From: Saprospiraceae bacterium
GTDB lineage: Bacteria > Bacteroidota > Bacteroidia > Chitinophagales > Saprospiraceae
Length of the DNA: 64,000 bases
Assembly (NCBI GenBank): GCA_027080725.1
Contig: JALWRC010000064.1
Span: 1-64,000 of the forward strand
Direction: 5' to 3'
Numbering within the stretch: position 1 is the stretch's first letter; every line of letters begins with the position of its first letter. The translations under genes were made by a program, and so were the position numbers. This document shows, in pieces, positions 4,685-18,391 of this stretch. The notes below the pieces were generated by a model. That model was not told the DNA's origin and did no database searches. It was given only the letters and a program-made list of their open reading frames with translations.

Positions 4685-4916
4685 GTGTATTGCAAAGTGC
4701 ACTTTTTTGATTTGAGAAACTGAAACAATCCCGTAGGGATGTCCTCTTTGTAGCCCCGTACGAGCAACAGCGAAGTGCGGGGTTTATAAGAGCACCAAAG
4801 CCATTTTGGTGGTATTTTTGCCTGACGCAATAGGTTATGTGCTTGAAAAGTGTCGTCTGCAAAATTAGTGACAAAACAATGTATAGGCTCATTTTTGTGC
4901 AGTTTGTTATACACAC
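4685..4916 (-). repeat. Terminally inverted repeat element, copy A
   Basis: This 232-bp element has ends that are imperfect inverted copies of each other (GTGTATTGCAAAGTGCAC at 4685 and GTGCAGTTTGTTATACACAC ending at 4916). Its reverse complement matches 18157-18391 along its length at roughly 85 percent by eye, including an internal ATCCCTACGGGATTG block and a stretch that can fold (CCCCGTACGAGC...GCGGGG). It has no conserved open frame. The size and termini resemble a MITE or other non-autonomous element. Confidence 0.75.
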
Positions 4917-9903: not shown

Positions 9904-9936
9904 CGGATAAAGTAGATGCCGGAGGAAGGCTGAAGG

Positions 9937-10421
9937 AAAGTGTTGCATTACAAAGTGCACATTTTTACAACCTCATACCGCCACGGCGGCACAGGCTCCC
10001 CCATCCCTACCGCCACAGCGGCACAGGCTCTTCTCCTTCATAGCCTGTGATGCCTCGGCGTTATTCAATCTGTTCATCGTATGAGTATTTATTATGAAGG
10101 AGAGGGGGGCTTATGTTTATCTAACTGTTGGGAATTTCATTAGGGTAATATTCAGCTAGATAAAGAGAGTATCCCTACCGCCACGGCGGCACAGGCTATT
10201 CTCCTTTGGCTATGGATTTACTATGTTACTTGATGTATTTCAAAGGAGAAGGGGTTAGGGGATGAGGTTGTTTAGACGGGATTCGGGATTAAGAGGATGT
10301 ATTCTCTATTCCTGTACCGCTATGACGGCACTGGCTATACTACTTAAAACCTGTGAAATCAAAGCGTGCTAGGCTCATTTTGTGCACTTTGTAATACACA
10401 CAAAGAAAAGTGTTGCATTAC
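9937..10421. repeat. Repeat element B with inverted ends and flanking direct repeats
   Basis: The left end GCATTACAAAGTGCAC (9945-9960) and right end GTGCACTTTGTAATACACAC (10382-10401) are inverted copies and match the ends of elements A (4685) and C (18157). A 15-base direct repeat AAAGTGTTGCATTAC borders it at 9937-9951 and 10407-10421. The inside differs from A and C: it holds four copies of a 23-base palindrome-centred unit (core CCGCCACGGCGGCACAGGCT), at about 9976, 10009, 10176 and 10314. There is no convincing open frame. It sits just beyond the 3' end of the radical SAM operon. Confidence 0.7.
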
Positions 10422-10442: not shown

Positions 10443-11765
10443 TTAGCCTACCTGCTGTTTCCAAAAGCGGTCTTTATCGCTGAACAATCGCCTCAAATAG
10501 ATACGATAGGCCAGATTGCCTCCGAAAGTGATAAAGAAATTCTTGCCGGAAGCCATTGTGCGCTTAAAAATAGGCGCCAATTTGAAGGTCTCTCTATAAG
10601 CCCATTTAAAACCTGCATCCAATTCTTCCGGGGTCATTTGCATGGGTTGGAAGACTACGTGCTGTGTGTCATAATGTGGCCAGTATTCATGCAAGATACG
10701 TCCCTCTTCCTTTAACTTTTTAAATAGGCTGGTACGGGGATAAGGGGTATTAATTGCATAACGCGGAATGTCGATTTTGTGGGTGTTGACGTAATCTACT
10801 GTTTGTTCGAATACAGATTTGTCATCACTGTCGAGGCCAAATATAAAAGTACCCATCAATACGACATTAATTCTGCGCAATTCGCGGATGATATACTGAT
10901 AGTTTTCGATTTTGTTAAAGCCCTTACTAATATCTTTTAACGAATTGGAGCTGATGGACTCCAGACCTATCAGTAAATAAGAGCATCCGCTTTTTTGCAA
11001 GAGATCGACCACTTCGGGATCGCGAAAAATCTTGGTCGTCGCCAATCCTCCCCAGATAATTTTTAAAGGGATTAGTGCCCGGAGTAATTCTTTGAAATAT
11101 AGCATGTCTTCCCCCATGCTCACATCATTAAAGACAATTCTTTTGGTGTTCAATGATTTGATCTCGTCTATTACTTCGTGAATGGGTCTAGTCTGCCATC
11201 CAAATTCCGCCGCCGGAACTGCGCAAAACTCACAGACCCCCTTGCACCCGCGTGTGGCGCTTACCGTATTGGGAGACATATACCCAAATCTTTTTTGCAA
11301 ATCCCTGCGTGCCATAGGTAGGCTCCTGAATAAATTGGAACTTTTGTCTTCATCATATCTGGGGAGCATGTGTCCGGCTGCATAGTCCCGTAGTAACCTC
11401 GGCCAACTCTCCTCCGCAAAACCTGTAACAATACTGTCAGCATGCTGTGCCGCCTCTTCCGGCAATAAGGTGACGTGTACGCCACCCAATACTACCTTAA
11501 CCCCTCTGTTCCGATAATACTTTGCGATATCATAAGCCCTATATGCAGTACCGGTCAAGACACTAATCCCAACGAGATCTACTTCGTCAATATAAGGACT
11601 TTGTCCAACACTCTCATCCTTTACCACGACTTCGACATCCAGGTCTTGTGGGACGAGCGCTGCAAGGGTAGTTGCTGTCAAGGGGGCCTCCCTAAAGGAG
11701 GTCTTGAAAGGCCAAATATCGAGCTTGTGAATCCGGCCGTCCGGCAATATTATTCCAATTTTCAT
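10443..11765 (-). CDS. B12-binding radical SAM protein 1 (DUF4070 type)
   Basis: This 440-residue enzyme has an N-terminal Rossmann-like B12-binding domain (residues 1-130, with DLVGISVLTGTAYRAYDIA and VVLGGVHVTLLPEEA) and the radical SAM cluster motif C174-x3-C178-x2-C181. The C-terminal part (YPRTSLFKKLKEEGRIL...HVVFQPMQMTPEEL) is the DUF4070 extension seen in HpnR-type methylases and related enzymes. Such proteins do difficult C-methylations or rearrangements on lipids and natural products. It is the last gene of the operon, 55 bases after the GH3-like gene. The substrate cannot be told from sequence. Confidence 0.88.
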   Translation of the reverse strand: MKIGIILPDGRIHKLDIWPFKTSFREAPLTATTLAALVPQDLDVEVVVKDESVGQSPYIDEVDLVGISVLTGTAYRAYDIAKYYRNRGVKVVLGGVHVTLLPEEAAQHADSIVTGFAEESWPRLLRDYAAGHMLPRYDEDKSSNLFRSLPMARRDLQKRFGYMSPNTVSATRGCKGVCEFCAVPAAEFGWQTRPIHEVIDEIKSLNTKRIVFNDVSMGEDMLYFKELLRALIPLKIIWGGLATTKIFRDPEVVDLLQKSGCSYLLIGLESISSNSLKDISKGFNKIENYQYIIRELRRINVVLMGTFIFGLDSDDKSVFEQTVDYVNTHKIDIPRYAINTPYPRTSLFKKLKEEGRILHEYWPHYDTQHVVFQPMQMTPEELDAGFKWAYRETFKLAPIFKRTMASGKNFFITFGGNLAYRIYLRRLFSDKDRFWKQQVG

Positions 11766-11820
11766 ACGACTGTATTTTTTGATGGATTTATGCTGTAGAG
11801 TGAGTTTTGGGAATACATAT

Positions 11821-13536
11821 TTAGTGTGTTTTTGTGTTGATGGGCCTTGACGGCTTTGGTTTACTAACTGAAGCGTTGAGGATTTGAGTTGAAATGTCCG
11901 GGTCTGCTATGAGTGGCAGGTCTTTGGCTGTGCTCTGCAGCTTGTTTTGCTGTGTTGCTCCGCGGTAAGCATCCAATTTTCTTCCATCCATCCAATAGAT
12001 TTTGGGTGCCGATAATTGCCCTAAAATCCTACAATTTTTGTAGTGATAATTATCCATTAGCAGCTTGTCTAAATTGGTGCATAGCTCCTTTGTAATGTCG
12101 AAGGGAGTCCCTACAGATTGCTCCAGAAAAAGGATATAGCAGGCTTTTTCTTCTTCGACAAAGGGGGCCAGAAAATAATTGCCATAGATATCTCCGGGCA
12201 GGAGCTTTTTAAGGGCTTTTCCGACGTGGAAGGCATTGAGTTTTTCACCGCGGACATCACTTATCACATCATTTTTGCCGACAAAGGATAGGTGAATTTT
12301 ACCCTCAAAATATCCCTCAAATCGGACAATGTCATGGGTTCGATACCGGTAGAGTCCTCCTGAGGTGGTCATTATTACTTCGTATTGATGGCCTCTGACC
12401 AATTGGTCGACGAGCAGGATTTCCCGGGTTTCGGTATTGCAGAATTCGTAAAAATGGATGTCGGTTGTCAGAACGGTTTTAGACTCGTTGCTTTTTTTGT
12501 CTATTATTGGTATCGAGACAATTCCTTCCGTCATCAGGAGTCCTTTACCTTGACAATACGTTTTCGGGAAGAGTCTTTTTATGGTCTGAAATCCCGGGTA
12601 GGCCCACCCTTCAGACCAGGCACTAATGACTCGTAAGTCCGGCCAAATCTCGTTCCAATGCGTATCTTCAAGGGTACCACCCACCGGAAGGAGTGCCTCC
12701 AGTAATTCCGAGCGCCGTGGATTTTTGTGCAAATATCTCTCAGCCACTTTTCTCAGTTTTTTGTCCTGTATTCTCTGCTCTGAAACGGCCCCTCTTCTAA
12801 GGTCCCGGATGATGTCATTTCTGAACTGAAGAATCTTATGTAGGATAATCGTCAAAAGCGAGGGATTCCAAACTGAAATTAATCTGAGATTTTCGGTTTG
12901 TAGCAAAAAAAGGGATAGGAGGTAGTAGTAATTCTCCATGTCAGTGACAACCGAAAGAAAAGAAGGAACCGCCATCATCCGGTCTATCAGTATTCTCCCG
13001 AAACGGCCAAAATAGGAGCTGTCAGTGGCAAACTCCACCGGTACTTTGCTCTTTTCCACATTCGGCGGAACGACCGGAGAAATTATCCAAAAGGATTTTC
13101 CCCTTTTTATCTCCGGAAAACGTAGATAAAGATCGTATAACCAAGTGTACAATGCGTGTGAAAAATCCCTTCGTAATGCATCATTGTAGGGGATGAGTTT
13201 CGAAGAGGAGGAACTGCCACTAGAAGGGATAAATCGCCGGACGTGGCAGTGGGTCAACACCTCTTTTTGACCTTGTTTTATTTGCTCTACATAAGGAAGG
13301 ATATTTTCGTAATCTACGATAGGTACCATTTTTTGATAGGTTGGAATATCTTTTATTTTATCGAAGTGGTGCTCCCTGCCGTATGTGGTATCTCTATTGG
13401 CCAGTATGAGTCGCATGAGCACATCCTCTTGTTGTGATCGCAGGTCTTTGGAGGAGGACATAAAACCGGCGTAATGCCTCCTGTAGTATAGCATATTGAA
13501 ATGGTGGAATATATAGGTTAAGGGGGCTGTTTTCAT
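11821..13536 (-). CDS. GH3-family acyl-adenylating ligase
   Basis: This 571-residue protein belongs to the GH3 family, whose plant members use ATP to join carboxylic acids to amino acids. The phosphate-binding loop is visible as SSGSSSSSK near residues 105-113. TSGGLYRYRTHDIVRFEGYFEG matches the conserved late motif and hinge, followed by a C-terminal domain (FVGKNDVISDVRGEKLNAFHV). The start at 13536 is chosen because it overlaps the upstream GNAT stop as ATGA; a longer frame to 13599 would run into that gene. It would make an acyl-adenylate and pass it to an amine or other acceptor, probably within the pathway of this operon. Confidence 0.85.
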   Translation of the reverse strand: MKTAPLTYIFHHFNMLYYRRHYAGFMSSSKDLRSQQEDVLMRLILANRDTTYGREHHFDKIKDIPTYQKMVPIVDYENILPYVEQIKQGQKEVLTHCHVRRFIPSSGSSSSSKLIPYNDALRRDFSHALYTWLYDLYLRFPEIKRGKSFWIISPVVPPNVEKSKVPVEFATDSSYFGRFGRILIDRMMAVPSFLSVVTDMENYYYLLSLFLLQTENLRLISVWNPSLLTIILHKILQFRNDIIRDLRRGAVSEQRIQDKKLRKVAERYLHKNPRRSELLEALLPVGGTLEDTHWNEIWPDLRVISAWSEGWAYPGFQTIKRLFPKTYCQGKGLLMTEGIVSIPIIDKKSNESKTVLTTDIHFYEFCNTETREILLVDQLVRGHQYEVIMTTSGGLYRYRTHDIVRFEGYFEGKIHLSFVGKNDVISDVRGEKLNAFHVGKALKKLLPGDIYGNYFLAPFVEEEKACYILFLEQSVGTPFDITKELCTNLDKLLMDNYHYKNCRILGQLSAPKIYWMDGRKLDAYRGATQQNKLQSTAKDLPLIADPDISTQILNASVSKPKPSRPINTKTH

Positions 13537-14243
13537 AACATTGAAAAATGTTTTTGTAAATGAGGATGGATATTGTCCAATTCCAACTCTGTAATACACA
13601 GCAATTCATCTCCTTTGATAAAACCCGGATTGTTTTCATAGAAGAATACCTCATGTGGATTGCTGTTTCTATTCCTGGGTGGGTGAAATGCTTCTTTCAG
13701 ATACTGATGTTCTCCCGAGGAGACGATAATCCCTGTGTGTGGATTATAACGATGAGGAAATATTTCATACCCGATTCTATCCATAAACTCCTTATAAACC
13801 GTTGGGGTGTTACTCTTGTAATTGGGATAGAAGACACGGTAAAATACGGGCAAAAAACGATAGGTGCGCACTCCTTTGGAGATCAACATCCAAAATATCC
13901 TGTAGTCTTCTTGCGCCTTCTTTATCTCCCTAGTTAGCTGCCAAAAGACATCCGGTAAGACCCTCGTCCCCCAATACCTCCGGTCGATAATCGTATCCCC
14001 GGAATAGACAACTGTCACCTTTTCCTTGCCCAAAAGCGAGTAAAACACTTTTTGGGTAGAAAAGCCGGCCACTTTACCATTATCTATAGATTTGAGAAGG
14101 ATGATGTAGTCTTTTTCATACAGGTCCTCCCTAAATTGGTCCAAACTGACATTGCCGAAGTACTTCGACATGAGACCAAACATTTCACACTCCTCTTTTG
14201 GTGTGATTTTTCCTGGGTGCAGGTATTGTCCTTTTAGCTTCAT
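13533..14243 (-). CDS. GNAT-like acyltransferase 2
   Basis: This is a protein of about 236 residues. The central part KVTVVYSGDTIIDRRYWGTRVLPDVFWQL resembles the acetyl-CoA strand and helix of GNAT enzymes, but the usual R/Q-x-x-G-x-G/A loop is weak. The start at MKLKGQYLHP (14243) leaves 16 bases after the upstream gene; ATGs at 14282 and 14300 would overlap that gene. It overlaps the GH3-like gene by 4 bases, so the two are translationally coupled. It probably transfers an acyl or aminoacyl group, but the substrate is unknown. Confidence 0.6.
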   Translation of the reverse strand: MKLKGQYLHPGKITPKEECEMFGLMSKYFGNVSLDQFREDLYEKDYIILLKSIDNGKVAGFSTQKVFYSLLGKEKVTVVYSGDTIIDRRYWGTRVLPDVFWQLTREIKKAQEDYRIFWMLISKGVRTYRFLPVFYRVFYPNYKSNTPTVYKEFMDRIGYEIFPHRYNPHTGIIVSSGEHQYLKEAFHPPRNRNSNPHEVFFYENNPGFIKGDELLCITELELDNIHPHLQKHFSML

Positions 14244-14259
14244 TGTTCCTGAGGTTTTT

Positions 14260-15393
14260 CTATAGTGCTCCGAGTTCAACATAGGGTATACCGTGGTCAA
14301 CGGAGATGTCTTCTCCGTTGGCTGCGAAGATTAATCTGCTTTTAATGGTGTAATGGGTGAAGTCGATTCCGGACAGTAACGGGTTTTTTTGATGCATCAT
14401 CAGGACGAGCAGCTGCCCTTTGGTACCCGGTGCAGCGGTTCGTTCTTTAATCCTTTGCAACAAAGCCCGAAATATGTTGATGTCGTCCTCCCGGATGGTA
14501 AGCATGGACAGGATTAGATAACTGACCGGCTCGCCTGCTTTAGGAAGGGTGGGGCTTCCTTTTATTTTGAGAAAAAGATTTAGGGCTGGACGCACCAGAT
14601 TCAGCCAGAAAGGATAGTTGTCCGGAACCCATGTTTTGATGTACGATTGGTCCCATATTGCGACACAACCAACAATTTCATGCCCCCTCTTAGCCAACAG
14701 AATGTCCTCAGTACAGAGGTCTCTCAGTATCCCACTTGAGTTGGTGATATCTTCCTTTGTGTAAAACGGCAGGAAGGTATGACGCCCGGCTTGTTGTGCC
14801 CGGAAATGTAAGAGGGCATCGAGGTCGGAAACCGTTGCCATCATGGTTTTTATTCCCTTTGTCGGTGCAGGTACATTGATGGCTTGTGGGGTGATTACCA
14901 TGGTTTTGAGCTTGCCGAGATCCCGATATTGGATCATCCCTCTTCTCTTTTGGAGAAGTAATTCGAAGAGATGATTATTGTCCTCCATGACTGTTGACAA
15001 GTATCCCGTGCAGTCTTTTGTGTAGTGGAACAGTATCCGGAAAAGCAGACCGAATACGCTCTTATTGCGGTATTTTTCTTGGATAAACAACTCACTCACG
15101 TAGGCAATTTGTCGAATGCTACCGTTGATAAATACCTTCTTTTTACTAATTATCCCGACTCCGGCAAATTGTCCGTTATGTGTATCTTTTACAGCGGCGA
15201 CGATGGTGTGGCTTCCTTTGGGTTGGAGCATGTTTTGAAATGCGGTATTGGACCGGGCATGAAAAGTAAAGCCGGAGGAATTTCTATGTCTCTCAAGCCA
15301 CAAAGCCAGAACCTCCAATTCTTCTCCCATGATCTCATAGGGGATAAACCGAGGATGATTACCCTTTATCAGATGTAGTAATACTGGCATCAC
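14260..15393 (-). CDS. GNAT-like acyltransferase 1 (probable two-domain)
   Basis: In this 377-residue protein the first half holds a GNAT core: VAAVKDTHNGQFAGVG, then IAYVSELFIQEKYRNKSVFGLLFR, which is the beta4 strand and CoA-binding helix. The second half (from about residue 185) repeats the plan in a weaker form (DILLAKRGHEIVGCVAIWD). Double GNAT proteins are often acyl or aminoacyl transferases. The start overlaps the stop of radical SAM 2 by 4 bases. The function in this operon is unknown. Confidence 0.68.
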   Translation of the reverse strand: MMPVLLHLIKGNHPRFIPYEIMGEELEVLALWLERHRNSSGFTFHARSNTAFQNMLQPKGSHTIVAAVKDTHNGQFAGVGIISKKKVFINGSIRQIAYVSELFIQEKYRNKSVFGLLFRILFHYTKDCTGYLSTVMEDNNHLFELLLQKRRGMIQYRDLGKLKTMVITPQAINVPAPTKGIKTMMATVSDLDALLHFRAQQAGRHTFLPFYTKEDITNSSGILRDLCTEDILLAKRGHEIVGCVAIWDQSYIKTWVPDNYPFWLNLVRPALNLFLKIKGSPTLPKAGEPVSYLILSMLTIREDDINIFRALLQRIKERTAAPGTKGQLLVLMMHQKNPLLSGIDFTHYTIKSRLIFAANGEDISVDHGIPYVELGAL

Positions 15394-16751
15394 AATGGGA
15401 TTTTGGTTTTGGCAATGGGATGAGGCGCTTCGGGGTCGCCGAGAGGAAAGGTCATCCGTTGGCCCCTGTCATTTCTAAGCATAAAGTTGATTAGAAAATA
15501 CATGCTCAACATCAATCTCCCCCGGATATTGGTCGGGTTGGTCATACGATAGAAGATGGAAAAGAGGCTATAGAATTTTTTTCGAAGGTTTTTACTGAGA
15601 TTTTCGATCATTTCTTTATCCTGCTCTGTTTTGAATGGGATCATCCCATATCGATAATCTTGACTTAACCACCATTTGTCAAATAGCAAGCGGTTTTCCG
15701 CTTCCAACTTCCGGTATAAGGCGGTCCCGGGAAAAGGGGTTAGGTGATTGTACCCGACCATGAAGATTTTGTTTGTAATACAAAAGTCCAGCACCTTTTT
15801 GGAGTATTCCGGGGAGTCATTGCCGTACCCGAATAAGAAGGTCAAGTACAGTCTTAACCCGTGTTGCTGTATTTTTTTGACAGCGGAGGCAGGGGACATC
15901 CTTCCGGCATTAAAAGACTTGTTCATTTTCTTCAAAACAGTCTTGTCGAGGCTTTCCATGCCGATTAAAACCCCTTGGCATCCACTTTGCTTCATCAGCC
16001 TCAGCAATTCTTCGTCATGCACGATCGTAATATCTGCTTGTCCGACCCATTTGATCTTGAGAGGGATGAGCCCTTGGAAAAGGTGCTTAGCATATGTTTT
16101 ATTAGAGCAGATGTTGTCATCTACGAAGAACAGCAATTGTTTTCTTTCTTTGAGTATTTGTACTTCGCGAAGGATGGTGTCAATGCTTCGATGGGTGTGC
16201 TTTTGGTCAAAGACGTTGTGAATGGAGCAAAATTCACACCTGAATTTGCAACCACGTCCGGCCTCCAACAGGCTGATCTTAAGATAATTTTTTCCCTGGT
16301 AAATACTCCTGTCAGGGATAATGTCATATTCCCCAAATGAAATCCTTTTTTGGTAGCGTTCTTTTAGTTCTCCTGACCGGAAATCTTTGATGATGTCTGC
16401 CCATACTCCCTCTGCTTCTCCTATGACCACGGCATCCGCATATCTCAGGATTTCGTCAGGGCAAAGGCTGGCATGAAAACCGCCCATCACTACCGGAATA
16501 TTCCTATTGCGGTACTCATTGGCGATTTGATAGGCCCGGCGAGCAGTATAGGTTTCTACAGAAATGGCAACCAGGTCGGTGGGGTAATCATAATCGATTT
16601 CTTCCATTCTGTCATCAAAAAAACGGATTTCCACATCATCGGGTGTCAACGCGGCGAGCTGCGCGATGGAGAGGGGTTCCATTTGCCACGCTCTGATGTA
16701 TTTTTGGCCTTTCATCTTGCCGATAGCAGGGAGTATAAGTGTTAGTTTCAT
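15390..16751 (-). CDS. B12-binding radical SAM protein 2
   Basis: This 453-residue enzyme has a B12-binding domain at residues 1-130 (DLVAISVETYTARRAYQIA, VVMGGFHASLCPDE) and a radical SAM motif C168-x3-C172-x2-C175 within EAGRGCKFRCEFCS. The C-terminal region has HLTPFPGTALYRKLEAENRLL, a DUF4070-type start. It differs enough from proteins 1 and 3 (FHAS instead of VHT/VHV, a longer basic C-terminus) to act on a different position or intermediate. It is the second gene of the operon, 19 bases after radical SAM 3. Confidence 0.88.
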   Translation of the reverse strand: MKLTLILPAIGKMKGQKYIRAWQMEPLSIAQLAALTPDDVEIRFFDDRMEEIDYDYPTDLVAISVETYTARRAYQIANEYRNRNIPVVMGGFHASLCPDEILRYADAVVIGEAEGVWADIIKDFRSGELKERYQKRISFGEYDIIPDRSIYQGKNYLKISLLEAGRGCKFRCEFCSIHNVFDQKHTHRSIDTILREVQILKERKQLLFFVDDNICSNKTYAKHLFQGLIPLKIKWVGQADITIVHDEELLRLMKQSGCQGVLIGMESLDKTVLKKMNKSFNAGRMSPASAVKKIQQHGLRLYLTFLFGYGNDSPEYSKKVLDFCITNKIFMVGYNHLTPFPGTALYRKLEAENRLLFDKWWLSQDYRYGMIPFKTEQDKEMIENLSKNLRKKFYSLFSIFYRMTNPTNIRGRLMLSMYFLINFMLRNDRGQRMTFPLGDPEAPHPIAKTKIPL

Positions 16752-16770
16752 AAGGCAGGGGTGTTTTTGA

Positions 16771-18087
16771 TTACGCGATGTGGTTCATTTGGTATTTACC
16801 ATAAAGTCTAAATCCCCAATTGGCGATTAATCTAAATCCAAGACTATGGTAAGCCCCGGATAGCCTTTTGTAAATAGATCTGTAGCTATGCGCTCTTCTG
16901 TGTAGCTCAAAGAAACCATTTCTCAATTCCTCAGGACTTAACTTATTGGGTTGAAATACGACGTGATGACCATCGTATTTTTCCCATTCTTGATGTAAAA
17001 TCCGGTTTTCGTTCAGTAATTTGTTGTAGAAGGGAGTTCCGGGGAAGGGGGTGGCGATAGCAAAGTGCAGAATATCGATTTTTACACTGTTGACAAACTC
17101 TAGTGTGGCATCAAATACATCATGGTCATCGTGGTCAAACCCCAGGATAAATGTTCCCAGGATTGAAATCTTTGCATCGTGCAGTTTGCGGACCAATTCG
17201 CCGTATCGCTCAACTTTGTTAAAACGCTTTCGCGTATCATTGATGGCTTGTTGATTGATGGACTCAAACCCCGTTAATACCCCCCTGCAACCGCTTTTAC
17301 GCGCTAATTCAAACCATTCATCATCATTGATAATTTTAGTGGTGGCGCAGCTGTACCATTTTATCTTTAAGGGGATCATGGCTTTCATTAATGCTTTGGA
17401 ATACTCGATATCCTCTGTAGGGCTGGAGTCCAGGAACGCCACTCTCTTAGAGGGCATTTGTTTAATCTCTTTAATGATGGCATCAATGGGGCGCTTTGAA
17501 AAATGTGCTTGATTAAATCCCGGGATGACACAAAACGAACATTTGTTGTAACAACCCCTGGTTGCTTCGATTCTGTTGGGTAGGATGTATTGGTTCCAAT
17601 GGAGTTTTGATCTGTCGGGAGCGGGCATTGCTCTACCTTGAAAAACCTCTTTCCAACCTTCCGGTCTGTAGACTTTCTTTAGACGTCCGTTTGAAAAATC
17701 GAGAAGCAGTTGCGGCCAGCTTTTCTCGGCATAGCCTATGACGATGGCATCGGCATTTTGAATGGCTTCTTCAGGCATCAATGTAGTGTGCACTCCGCCA
17801 AGTACCACAGTGATGCCACGCTTTCTAAGTTTTTTGGATAGTGCATACGCATAGGGAGCATTGGCCGTTAGAACACTAATACCTACCAGATCTGCAGACC
17901 AATCATCGATATCGACGGACTCGACCGCTTCATCAATAACGCGCACCTCTGCATTCAGTTGCTTCGGTACCAGTGCACTAAGAAGGGTCAGCGATGTAGG
18001 CGCATATCCCATTCGCCTCTTTTTTTTGACCCAAATGGAATCATTCTTGTGACTTGTGGTGTTGGGTAAAAACAATATTATTTTCAT
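16771..18087 (-). CDS. B12-binding radical SAM protein 3 (DUF4070 type)
   Basis: This 438-residue enzyme is the first gene of the six-gene operon. The B12-binding domain covers about residues 1-135 (DLVGISVLTANAPYAYALS, VVLGGVHTTLMPEEA). The radical SAM motif is C179-x3-C183-x2-C186 in EATRGCYNKCSFCV. The C-terminal part (TPFPGTPFYNKLLNENRILHQEW) is DUF4070 type and close in form to protein 1, which suggests 1 and 3 arose by duplication. A -7 box lies at 18122-18129. Confidence 0.88.
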   Translation of the reverse strand: MKIILFLPNTTSHKNDSIWVKKKRRMGYAPTSLTLLSALVPKQLNAEVRVIDEAVESVDIDDWSADLVGISVLTANAPYAYALSKKLRKRGITVVLGGVHTTLMPEEAIQNADAIVIGYAEKSWPQLLLDFSNGRLKKVYRPEGWKEVFQGRAMPAPDRSKLHWNQYILPNRIEATRGCYNKCSFCVIPGFNQAHFSKRPIDAIIKEIKQMPSKRVAFLDSSPTEDIEYSKALMKAMIPLKIKWYSCATTKIINDDEWFELARKSGCRGVLTGFESINQQAINDTRKRFNKVERYGELVRKLHDAKISILGTFILGFDHDDHDVFDATLEFVNSVKIDILHFAIATPFPGTPFYNKLLNENRILHQEWEKYDGHHVVFQPNKLSPEELRNGFFELHRRAHSYRSIYKRLSGAYHSLGFRLIANWGFRLYGKYQMNHIA

Positions 18088-18121: not shown

Positions 18122-18129
18122 CAAAGATA
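18122..18129 (-). promoter_or_regulatory. -7 box of the radical SAM/GH3 operon
   Basis: The minus strand reads TATCTTTG, an exact TAnnTTTG match, 34 bases before the first ATG. A TTTA sits about 21 bases upstream as a weak -33 element. The upstream edge of this promoter touches repeat element C, so the element may supply or alter part of it. Confidence 0.55.
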
Positions 18130-18156: not shown

Positions 18157-18391
18157 GTGTGTATTACAAACTGCACAAAAATGAGCCTTTGCATTGTTTT
18201 GTCACTATTTTTGCAGACGACACTTCTCACGTATTTACACTATTGTGCCGGGCAAAAATACCGCCAAAACGACTTTGGGTGCTATTATAAACCCTGCACT
18301 TCACTGTCGCTTATACAGGGCTACAAAGATGACATCCCTACGGGATTGTTTCAGTTTTTCAAATCAAAAAAGTACACTTTGTAATACACAC
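18157..18391 (+). repeat. Terminally inverted repeat element, copy C
   Basis: This 235-bp element has ends GTGTGTATTACAAACTGCAC and GTACACTTTGTAATACACAC, imperfect inverted copies. It matches element A (4685-4916) in opposite orientation along its length, with shared blocks such as TGCAGACGACACTT and CATCCCTACGGGATTG. Short open frames in it are not conserved between copies A and C, so it is probably non-coding. It lies directly upstream of the radical SAM operon promoter. Confidence 0.75.

Follow-up and report, generated by a model that had tools for sequence, protein, structure and literature searches.

Bacterial GH3 enzymes are known from the planctomycete OlsH/OlsI ornithine-lipid pathway, in which OlsH makes N-acyl ornithine by the ATP-dependent coupling of a fatty acid with an amine, and the second step is performed by the alpha/beta hydrolase OlsI (PMC12493201). 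Among acyltransferases of the GNAT superfamily, catalysis by the C-terminal carboxylate has been reviewed as unique to N-myristoyltransferase (NMT; PMC4964394), and crystal snapshots show this carboxylate acting as the base in human NMT1 (PMC7048800). A further group of described enzymes, including HpnJ, BchE, HpnR, PhpK and the ladderane-type enzymes, combines a B12-binding domain with a Radical_SAM domain. Here, we describe a cluster of six genes encoding a GH3-type ligase, two GNAT-fold acyltransferases (N1 and N2) and three B12-binding-fold radical SAM proteins (rSAM-A, rSAM-B and rSAM-C). The cluster lies in a 64,000-nt stretch of DNA, hereafter the window, that covers positions 1 to 64,000 of contig JALWRC010000064.1 from the Saprospiraceae bacterium assembly GCA_027080725.1. 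All six open reading frames reported by an earlier note on this DNA are indeed found on the minus strand between 18087 and 10443, and are transcribed in the order rSAM-A, rSAM-B, N1, N2, GH3, rSAM-C; coordinates of individual genes given below all refer to that strand.

With modest confidence, we read these six genes as a representative of a widespread biosynthetic cluster whose product would be an N-acyl amide lipid remodelled by radical enzymes. More tentative is the broader view of a pan-bacterial class of lipid amides, built by an NMT-like enzyme and a GH3 ligase, tailored by radical SAM enzymes, two to five in number, from families without a name, and spread as an intact unit, once on a mobilizable plasmid. 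The enzyme superfamilies involved are already known; the cluster family itself is, as far as we have checked, undescribed. The earlier note knew of no named pathway with this gene set, and we likewise found no description of the set or its context in the open-access literature, subscription papers being mostly outside our reach. The terms "radical SAM", "GNAT" and "gene cluster" do not occur in the main text of the OlsH paper (PMC12493201). A lead on dialkynylimidazolone or fischerazole lipids was dropped, as it yielded no more than one table row in a review of fatty acyl-AMP ligases (PMC11837247).

Linkage and co-inheritance of the core genes

An alignment of rSAM-B from four genomes, combined with two peptide patterns, retrieved 125 relatives from the species collection, the best 80 of which define the loci compared here (L036-L115). 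rSAM-B was the sole criterion of their selection; they were annotated with profiles derived from the cluster's own proteins and sorted by tree. Three of them (L037, L038 and L106) are, judging by length, the same contigs as L030-L032. The 80 loci span 14 named phyla, with 6 unplaced, which does away with the idea of an operon private to Bacteroidota. Most are metagenome assemblies, in which single cases may be misbinned, and strain-titled loci are found in Neoroseomonas oryzicola (L066) and Halomonas campaniensis (L103).

Within 10 kb of rSAM-B, N1 is present in 72 of the 80 loci, N2 in 70, GH3 in 63, an rC-type radical SAM gene (the type of rSAM-C) in 63 and rSAM-A in 4. The full set, i.e., N1, N2, GH3 and an rC- or rSAM-A-type gene all within this distance, occurs in 53 of the 80 loci. 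The earlier note would have counted its proposal as refuted if the GH3 and GNAT genes proved unlinked to the radical SAM genes in all relatives, but the linkage holds in 33 of the 38 loci that extend at least 5 kb on both sides of rSAM-B. Gene order is conserved as well, the most frequent same-strand neighbour pairs being rSAM-B>N1 (61), N1>N2 (60), N2>GH3 (60) and rC>rSAM-B (52). The same neighbours, rSAM-B, N1, N2, GH3 and rSAM-C, were found together in the genomes G133, G184 and G092. Such recurrence around independent homologues of rSAM-B puts the gene set far outside what chance would assemble, and bears out its proposed coherence.

The core proteins are also inherited together. Across 44 loci with five full-length core proteins, Mantel correlations range from 0.69 to 0.89 for all ten protein pairs, and the best of 1000 permutations per pair does not exceed 0.35; part of this correlation must come from shared host ancestry. 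In the same loci, median pairwise identity reaches 62% for rSAM-B and 60% for rSAM-C, against 29-37% for N1, N2 and GH3, indicating that the radical enzymes are the more constrained part of the core.

It could be argued that these genes are unrelated neighbours, brought together by chance or by the repeats that surround them. Copies of an abundant inverted repeat, GTGTATTACAAAGTGCAC, do flank the cluster on both sides (window positions 4685-4913, 9933-10421 and 18157-18391). However, the repeat is not special to this place: it has 239 sites at up to 2 mismatches in the host genome (3.80 Mb, 110 contigs), compared with none for the reversed control, and its role as the border of a mobile unit is therefore not supported. 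Several of the listed sites form inverted pairs approximately 210-530 bases apart, in the manner of a small mobile or REPIN-type element. Since the same gene order is found in 14 named phyla, and since the pairwise distances of the five core proteins all correlate with one another, we regard an accidental assembly as extremely improbable.

The GH3 ligase and the two acyltransferases

The GH3-type acyl-acid amido synthetase (11821-13536; 571 amino acids from ATG) contains the N, M and C domains of its family, with Pfam scores of 174.9 bits for GH3, 52.5 for GH3_M and 25.2 for GH3_C, all above cut-off. The GH3 family profile also matches plant GH3 structures (best E 5e-40). The protein contains SSGSSSSSK and YRYRTHD, which we take to be nucleotide-binding motifs. 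It resembles OlsH in being a bacterial GH3 enzyme, yet it is far from the OlsH family itself, scoring 43.3 bits against the NCBIfam model NF052613, whose cut-off is 620. Some GH3 match is present in 59 of 60 relatives, whereas strong matches (E 4e-37 or better) are confined to four of them (G004, G051, G006 and G046) and the own genome; used as a query, the GH3 protein gave no confirmed relative locus in named genome contigs. In G051, a fatty-acid hydroxylase is fused to a GH3 ligase (L016, 4737-7292), next to a P450 gene and a gene with a 2-oxoacid dehydrogenase acyltransferase domain. We count this fusion in favour of a lipid product.

Neither acyltransferase reaches a Pfam or NCBIfam cut-off, and N2 has no Pfam match at all; their assignment as GNATs comes from predicted structures, with a mean confidence score (pLDDT) of 92.2 for N1 and 92.5 for N2. 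N1 (14260-15393; 377 amino acids) is predicted to adopt a tandem GNAT fold over its full length. Its best row among the matches listed is the N-myristoyltransferase 4qbj (VIA-align Z 21.4, root-mean-square deviation (rmsd) 4.4, 312 residues aligned), an alignment that places it in the tandem GNAT fold of NMT. N1 differs from the eukaryotic enzyme in lacking an NMT Pfam match, in its 8-12% identity in the NMT rows and in its bacterial gene-cluster setting. N2 (13533-14243; 236 amino acids from ATG) has the predicted fold of a single-domain GNAT. It aligns with GCN5 (5trm; Z 12.6, rmsd 3.1, 159 residues) and with many other GNATs; its matches include the acyl-homoserine lactone (AHL) synthase LasI (1ro5; Z 11.3, rmsd 3.4, 164 residues), and the motif SGDT is invariant in 42 of 42 N2 sequences.

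The C-terminus of N1 (...ELGAL) deserves particular attention. In the alignment with human NMT1 (7owr), its last residue, 377, closes the aligned range opposite residue 496, which is the C-terminus of the human enzyme (PMC7048800). All 39 aligned N1 homologues end at one alignment column, whereas N2 and GH3 end at scattered positions, and the N1 tail reads E/D-x-x-x-L in all but two of the 39, L055 ending in Tyr and L073 in Met. These alignments combine the window with 38 of 42 listed homologues for N1, 41 of 42 for N2 and 33 of 44 for GH3; the lists were drawn from length-limited open frames and missed genes behind antisense frames in GC-rich loci. A later profile search covered all frames of at least 60 amino acids, and in 70 of 83 N1 frames the match extends to 3 residues or fewer from the stop, distant or cut copies being among the other 13. 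A terminal carboxylate with a part in catalysis would be expected to fix the end in this way. N1 thus lies, by sequence, outside the NMT family; judging from the predicted model, it is probably NMT-like in fold and perhaps also in catalysis.

Radical SAM proteins, accompanying genes and operon structure

The three radical SAM proteins, rSAM-A (16771-18087; 438 amino acids), rSAM-B (15390-16751; 453 amino acids) and rSAM-C (10443-11765; 440 amino acids), share the domain build of HpnJ, BchE and their kin. Both Pfam domains score above cut-off in each: B12-binding at 48.2, 40.5 and 40.6 bits, and Radical_SAM at 59.6, 49.3 and 57.9 bits, respectively. The CX3CX2C motif is intact in 203 of 203 radical SAM proteins from the cluster family, the window's three included. 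Despite this shared build, the window proteins are far from the named enzymes: among the matches listed, every NCBIfam match is below cut-off, with 84-101 bits for HpnJ (the best at 101.2, against a cut-off of 577.6) and 86-93 for BchE (against 481.35). Five other cluster radical SAM proteins (rSAM-B of L036, rSAM-B and rSAM-C of L085, and the rB2 and rB3 proteins of L083) reach no named NCBIfam model. The DUF4070 ends attributed to these proteins by the earlier note are sub-threshold: the domain falls below its 22-bit cut-off in two of them (20.2 and 16.8) and has no listed Pfam match in the third. The cobalamin-histidine motif DxHxxG is found in none of the 203 proteins (first 160 residues of the trimmed sequences), and a GG-x-H-like motif in 127.

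In a tree of these 203 sequences (frames of at least 200 bits and at least 330 amino acids), rSAM-B forms one clade and the rSAM-C type forms others. Two additional clades, rB2 (26 loci) and rB3 (21 loci), are each present as a single copy per locus, counting the plasmid copy described below. Each of 82 loci (the 80 scan loci, the window and the plasmid) carries one orthologue of rSAM-B, the most conserved core gene; 80 fall in the main clade, and L093 and L110 form a sister pair. The window's rSAM-C belongs to an rC-type clade and is 74% identical to the L106 sequence. Of the three radical enzymes originally counted, then, rSAM-B and rSAM-C are core orthologues, while rSAM-A is a further rC-type copy, so far mainly from Bacteroidota. 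Four Bacteroidota sequences form the rSAM-A clade, on the rSAM-C side, with a support of 99 in both trees. A Parcubacteria sequence (L093), absent from the smaller tree, joins them in the large tree only, at a support of 51, and the claim of a strictly Bacteroidota distribution was accordingly narrowed to the four-sequence clade. The window has neither rB2 nor rB3, both of which are retained in its relatives L036, L037, L039 and L040.

Many genomes of the same phylum, mainly from three families (f35, f37 and f48; e.g., G226, G230 and G305), contain one or two radical SAM proteins at approximately 230-280 bits to the rSAM-B profile. The one scanned, from G230 and over part of its frame, reached no named family; its candidate identity as BchE was dropped at 52 bits against 481.35. 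An HpnJ outgroup was sought in the own genome and 14 control genomes, with no match above cut-off.

Elsewhere, the core often comes with a fatty-acid desaturase, a PAP2 phosphatase, a Rieske protein or two more radical SAM genes. PAP2 is found within 10 kb of rSAM-B in 27 of the 80 loci, a desaturase in 26, a small protein with a sub-threshold DUF4440 match in 22, a Rieske protein in 16, an unnamed protein of about 327 amino acids in 13 and another unnamed protein in 7; at a threshold of 100 bits and over the whole locus, the figures are 20, 24, 21, 16, 13 and 7, respectively. Seven neighbour groups recur in 5 or more of the 80 loci, one of them antisense; the other six, listed here, were scanned, the last two having no Pfam match. 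They bear on the possibility that the cluster makes no small molecule de novo but modifies a macromolecule or an existing lipid, for example by N-terminal or lysine acylation or by membrane-lipid remodelling. NMT, the tied best match of N1, does act on protein N-termini (PMC7048800), and no scaffold-making gene occurs among the recurrent neighbours scanned. However, no candidate substrate protein stands out among them either, and GH3 enzymes use free acids and small amines (PMC12493201), so that we consider this possibility rather improbable.

A triad of N1, N2 and GH3 also exists in loci that lack B12-type radical SAM genes, namely L015, L017, L033 and L143 in Bacteroidota and L122 in Burkholderia arboris. 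As in the cluster, the three genes adjoin or lie near one another; in the fetched stretches, they are accompanied by Rieske and desaturase genes instead of the radical SAM genes, L017 having only a Rieske match. The N1 proteins of L015, L017, L033 and genome G667 (L133, the same gene as in L143) end in (E/D)-x-A-R-I. In a further locus, L034, the single radical SAM protein lacks a B12 domain. Beside the version in L033 lies a gene for a 931-amino-acid protein with an NQR2/RnfD domain, FG-GAP and UnbV/ASPIC repeats (14797-17592). A hint from Saprospiraceae relatives that radical SAM enzymes replace oxygen-dependent tailoring was abandoned as a general rule, since many other loci carry both and the host has terminal-oxidase genes.

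One copy of the full cluster, with five radical SAM genes, PAP2 and a desaturase, is located on the Citrobacter portucalensis plasmid NZ_CP134684.1 (L120, 8361-20456). This plasmid is complete, comes from a gull sample, and is typed as mobilizable (IncFIB, IncFII). A megablast comparison of its cluster with 5,426 E. coli genomes gave no match.

In the window, the genes are tightly packed, as the earlier note had described. rSAM-A and rSAM-B are separated by a 19-nt gap (read from the sequence); rSAM-B and N1 overlap by 4 nt if N1 starts at GTG, or by 1 nt with the next ATG; N1 and N2 are 16 nt apart; N2 and GH3 share a 4-nt ATGA overlap; and 55 nt separate GH3 from rSAM-C. The promoter box placed before the first gene is uncertain. 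A -7-like box, TATCTTTG (18122-18129, minus strand), can be read in the leader and fits the Bacteroidota -7 consensus. Two TAnnTTTG words occur in the 408-nt leader, where shuffled sequences give an expectation of 0.13, but the 30 nt preceding the box contain no TTTG. Control by a cobalamin riboswitch was discarded: no Rfam match reaches the gathering score in the window, and the genome's single match is on another contig, C88.

The candidate product and its meaning

Given the GH3 chemistry, the NMT-like N1, and the desaturase and PAP2 genes of relatives, the simplest proposal for the product is an N-acyl amide lipid. We infer a pathway in which GH3 would first adenylate a carboxylic acid (a fatty acid being the likeliest) and couple it to a small amine or amino acid. 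In a second step, N1 would move a fatty acyl group onto an amine, using its own C-terminal carboxylate as base, with N2 as a second, smaller acyltransferase. rSAM-B, rSAM-C and, here, rSAM-A would then modify the chain or the head group at unactivated carbons, and the extra radical SAM enzymes, desaturase and Rieske protein of other bacteria may add steps. The acyl-amide logic that the earlier note saw in the GH3 and GNAT pair fits the folds, the domains and the lipid genes beside relatives.

A different kind of product can be envisaged, i.e., a diffusible or exported small acyl-amide such as a signal, a siderophore-like compound or an antibiotic, with the GNATs transferring short acyl groups. 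In Acinetobacter baumannii, genes are arranged in the run HlyD - MFS - N2 - GH3 - outer-membrane efflux - N1 - SurE (L121, 5150-13927), suggestive of export. The match of N2 to an AHL synthase and the tie between NMT and another tandem GNAT as matches of N1 point the same way, as does the sporadic spread of the cluster, N1 being present in 9 of the 199 genomes of the family and in 3 of the 395 genomes of the class (own genome counted in both) and one copy being carried by the Citrobacter plasmid. Against this, none of the six recurrent neighbour groups scanned is an exporter, and we judge such a product unlikely, though a more serious contender than the modification of a macromolecule or an existing lipid.

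Several points weigh against an N-acyl amide lipid. No member of the cluster has a characterised substrate or product. As annotated, 5 of the 38 well-flanked loci lack part of the core arrangement: L044 and L052 have rSAM-B alone, L057 lacks GH3, L072 carries only radical SAM genes and PAP2, and L079 has N1 on the opposite strand and lacks GH3. Among all 80 loci, rSAM-B stands alone in 4 (L044, L045, L047 and L052). The sole Pfam match of N1, besides not being to NMT, is a weak one to Acetyltransf_10 (16.6 bits, cut-off 23.6). For N1, the tandem GNAT MAB_4324 (7q3a) ties with NMT (Z 21.2, rmsd 3.9, 298 residues aligned), and the tandem GNAT Eis has been suggested to use F402 as a remote base (PMC4964394), so that the group moved by N1 could be a short acyl. 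When human NMT1 is deprived of its last two residues, it relies on Glu244 instead (PMC7048800). An aligner can pull ends together in a single column, the count over 83 frames being independent of that alignment's ends. Cobalamin use is an assumption taken from the B12-binding domain, given the lack of DxHxxG. The host genome has four COX1 matches, so oxygen-free chemistry is not forced; it also has two desaturase genes elsewhere. Finally, desaturase, Rieske and PAP2 genes are found in none of the six stretches of the window's own clade (L036-L040 and L106), some of which are only 11 kb long, and the lipid argument therefore leans partly on other lineages.

A five-gene core kept linked in 14 named phyla, with radical SAM proteins outside the named families in the scans made, points to a common molecule that has so far gone unseen. 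The targets that it names are several orthogroups of radical SAM proteins, the GH3 ligase, and a bacterial acyltransferase similar to NMT even in its fixed C-terminus. The natural comparison would be between bacteria in which the acyl-amide triad is accompanied by radical SAM tailoring and those in which it is accompanied by oxygenase and desaturase genes.

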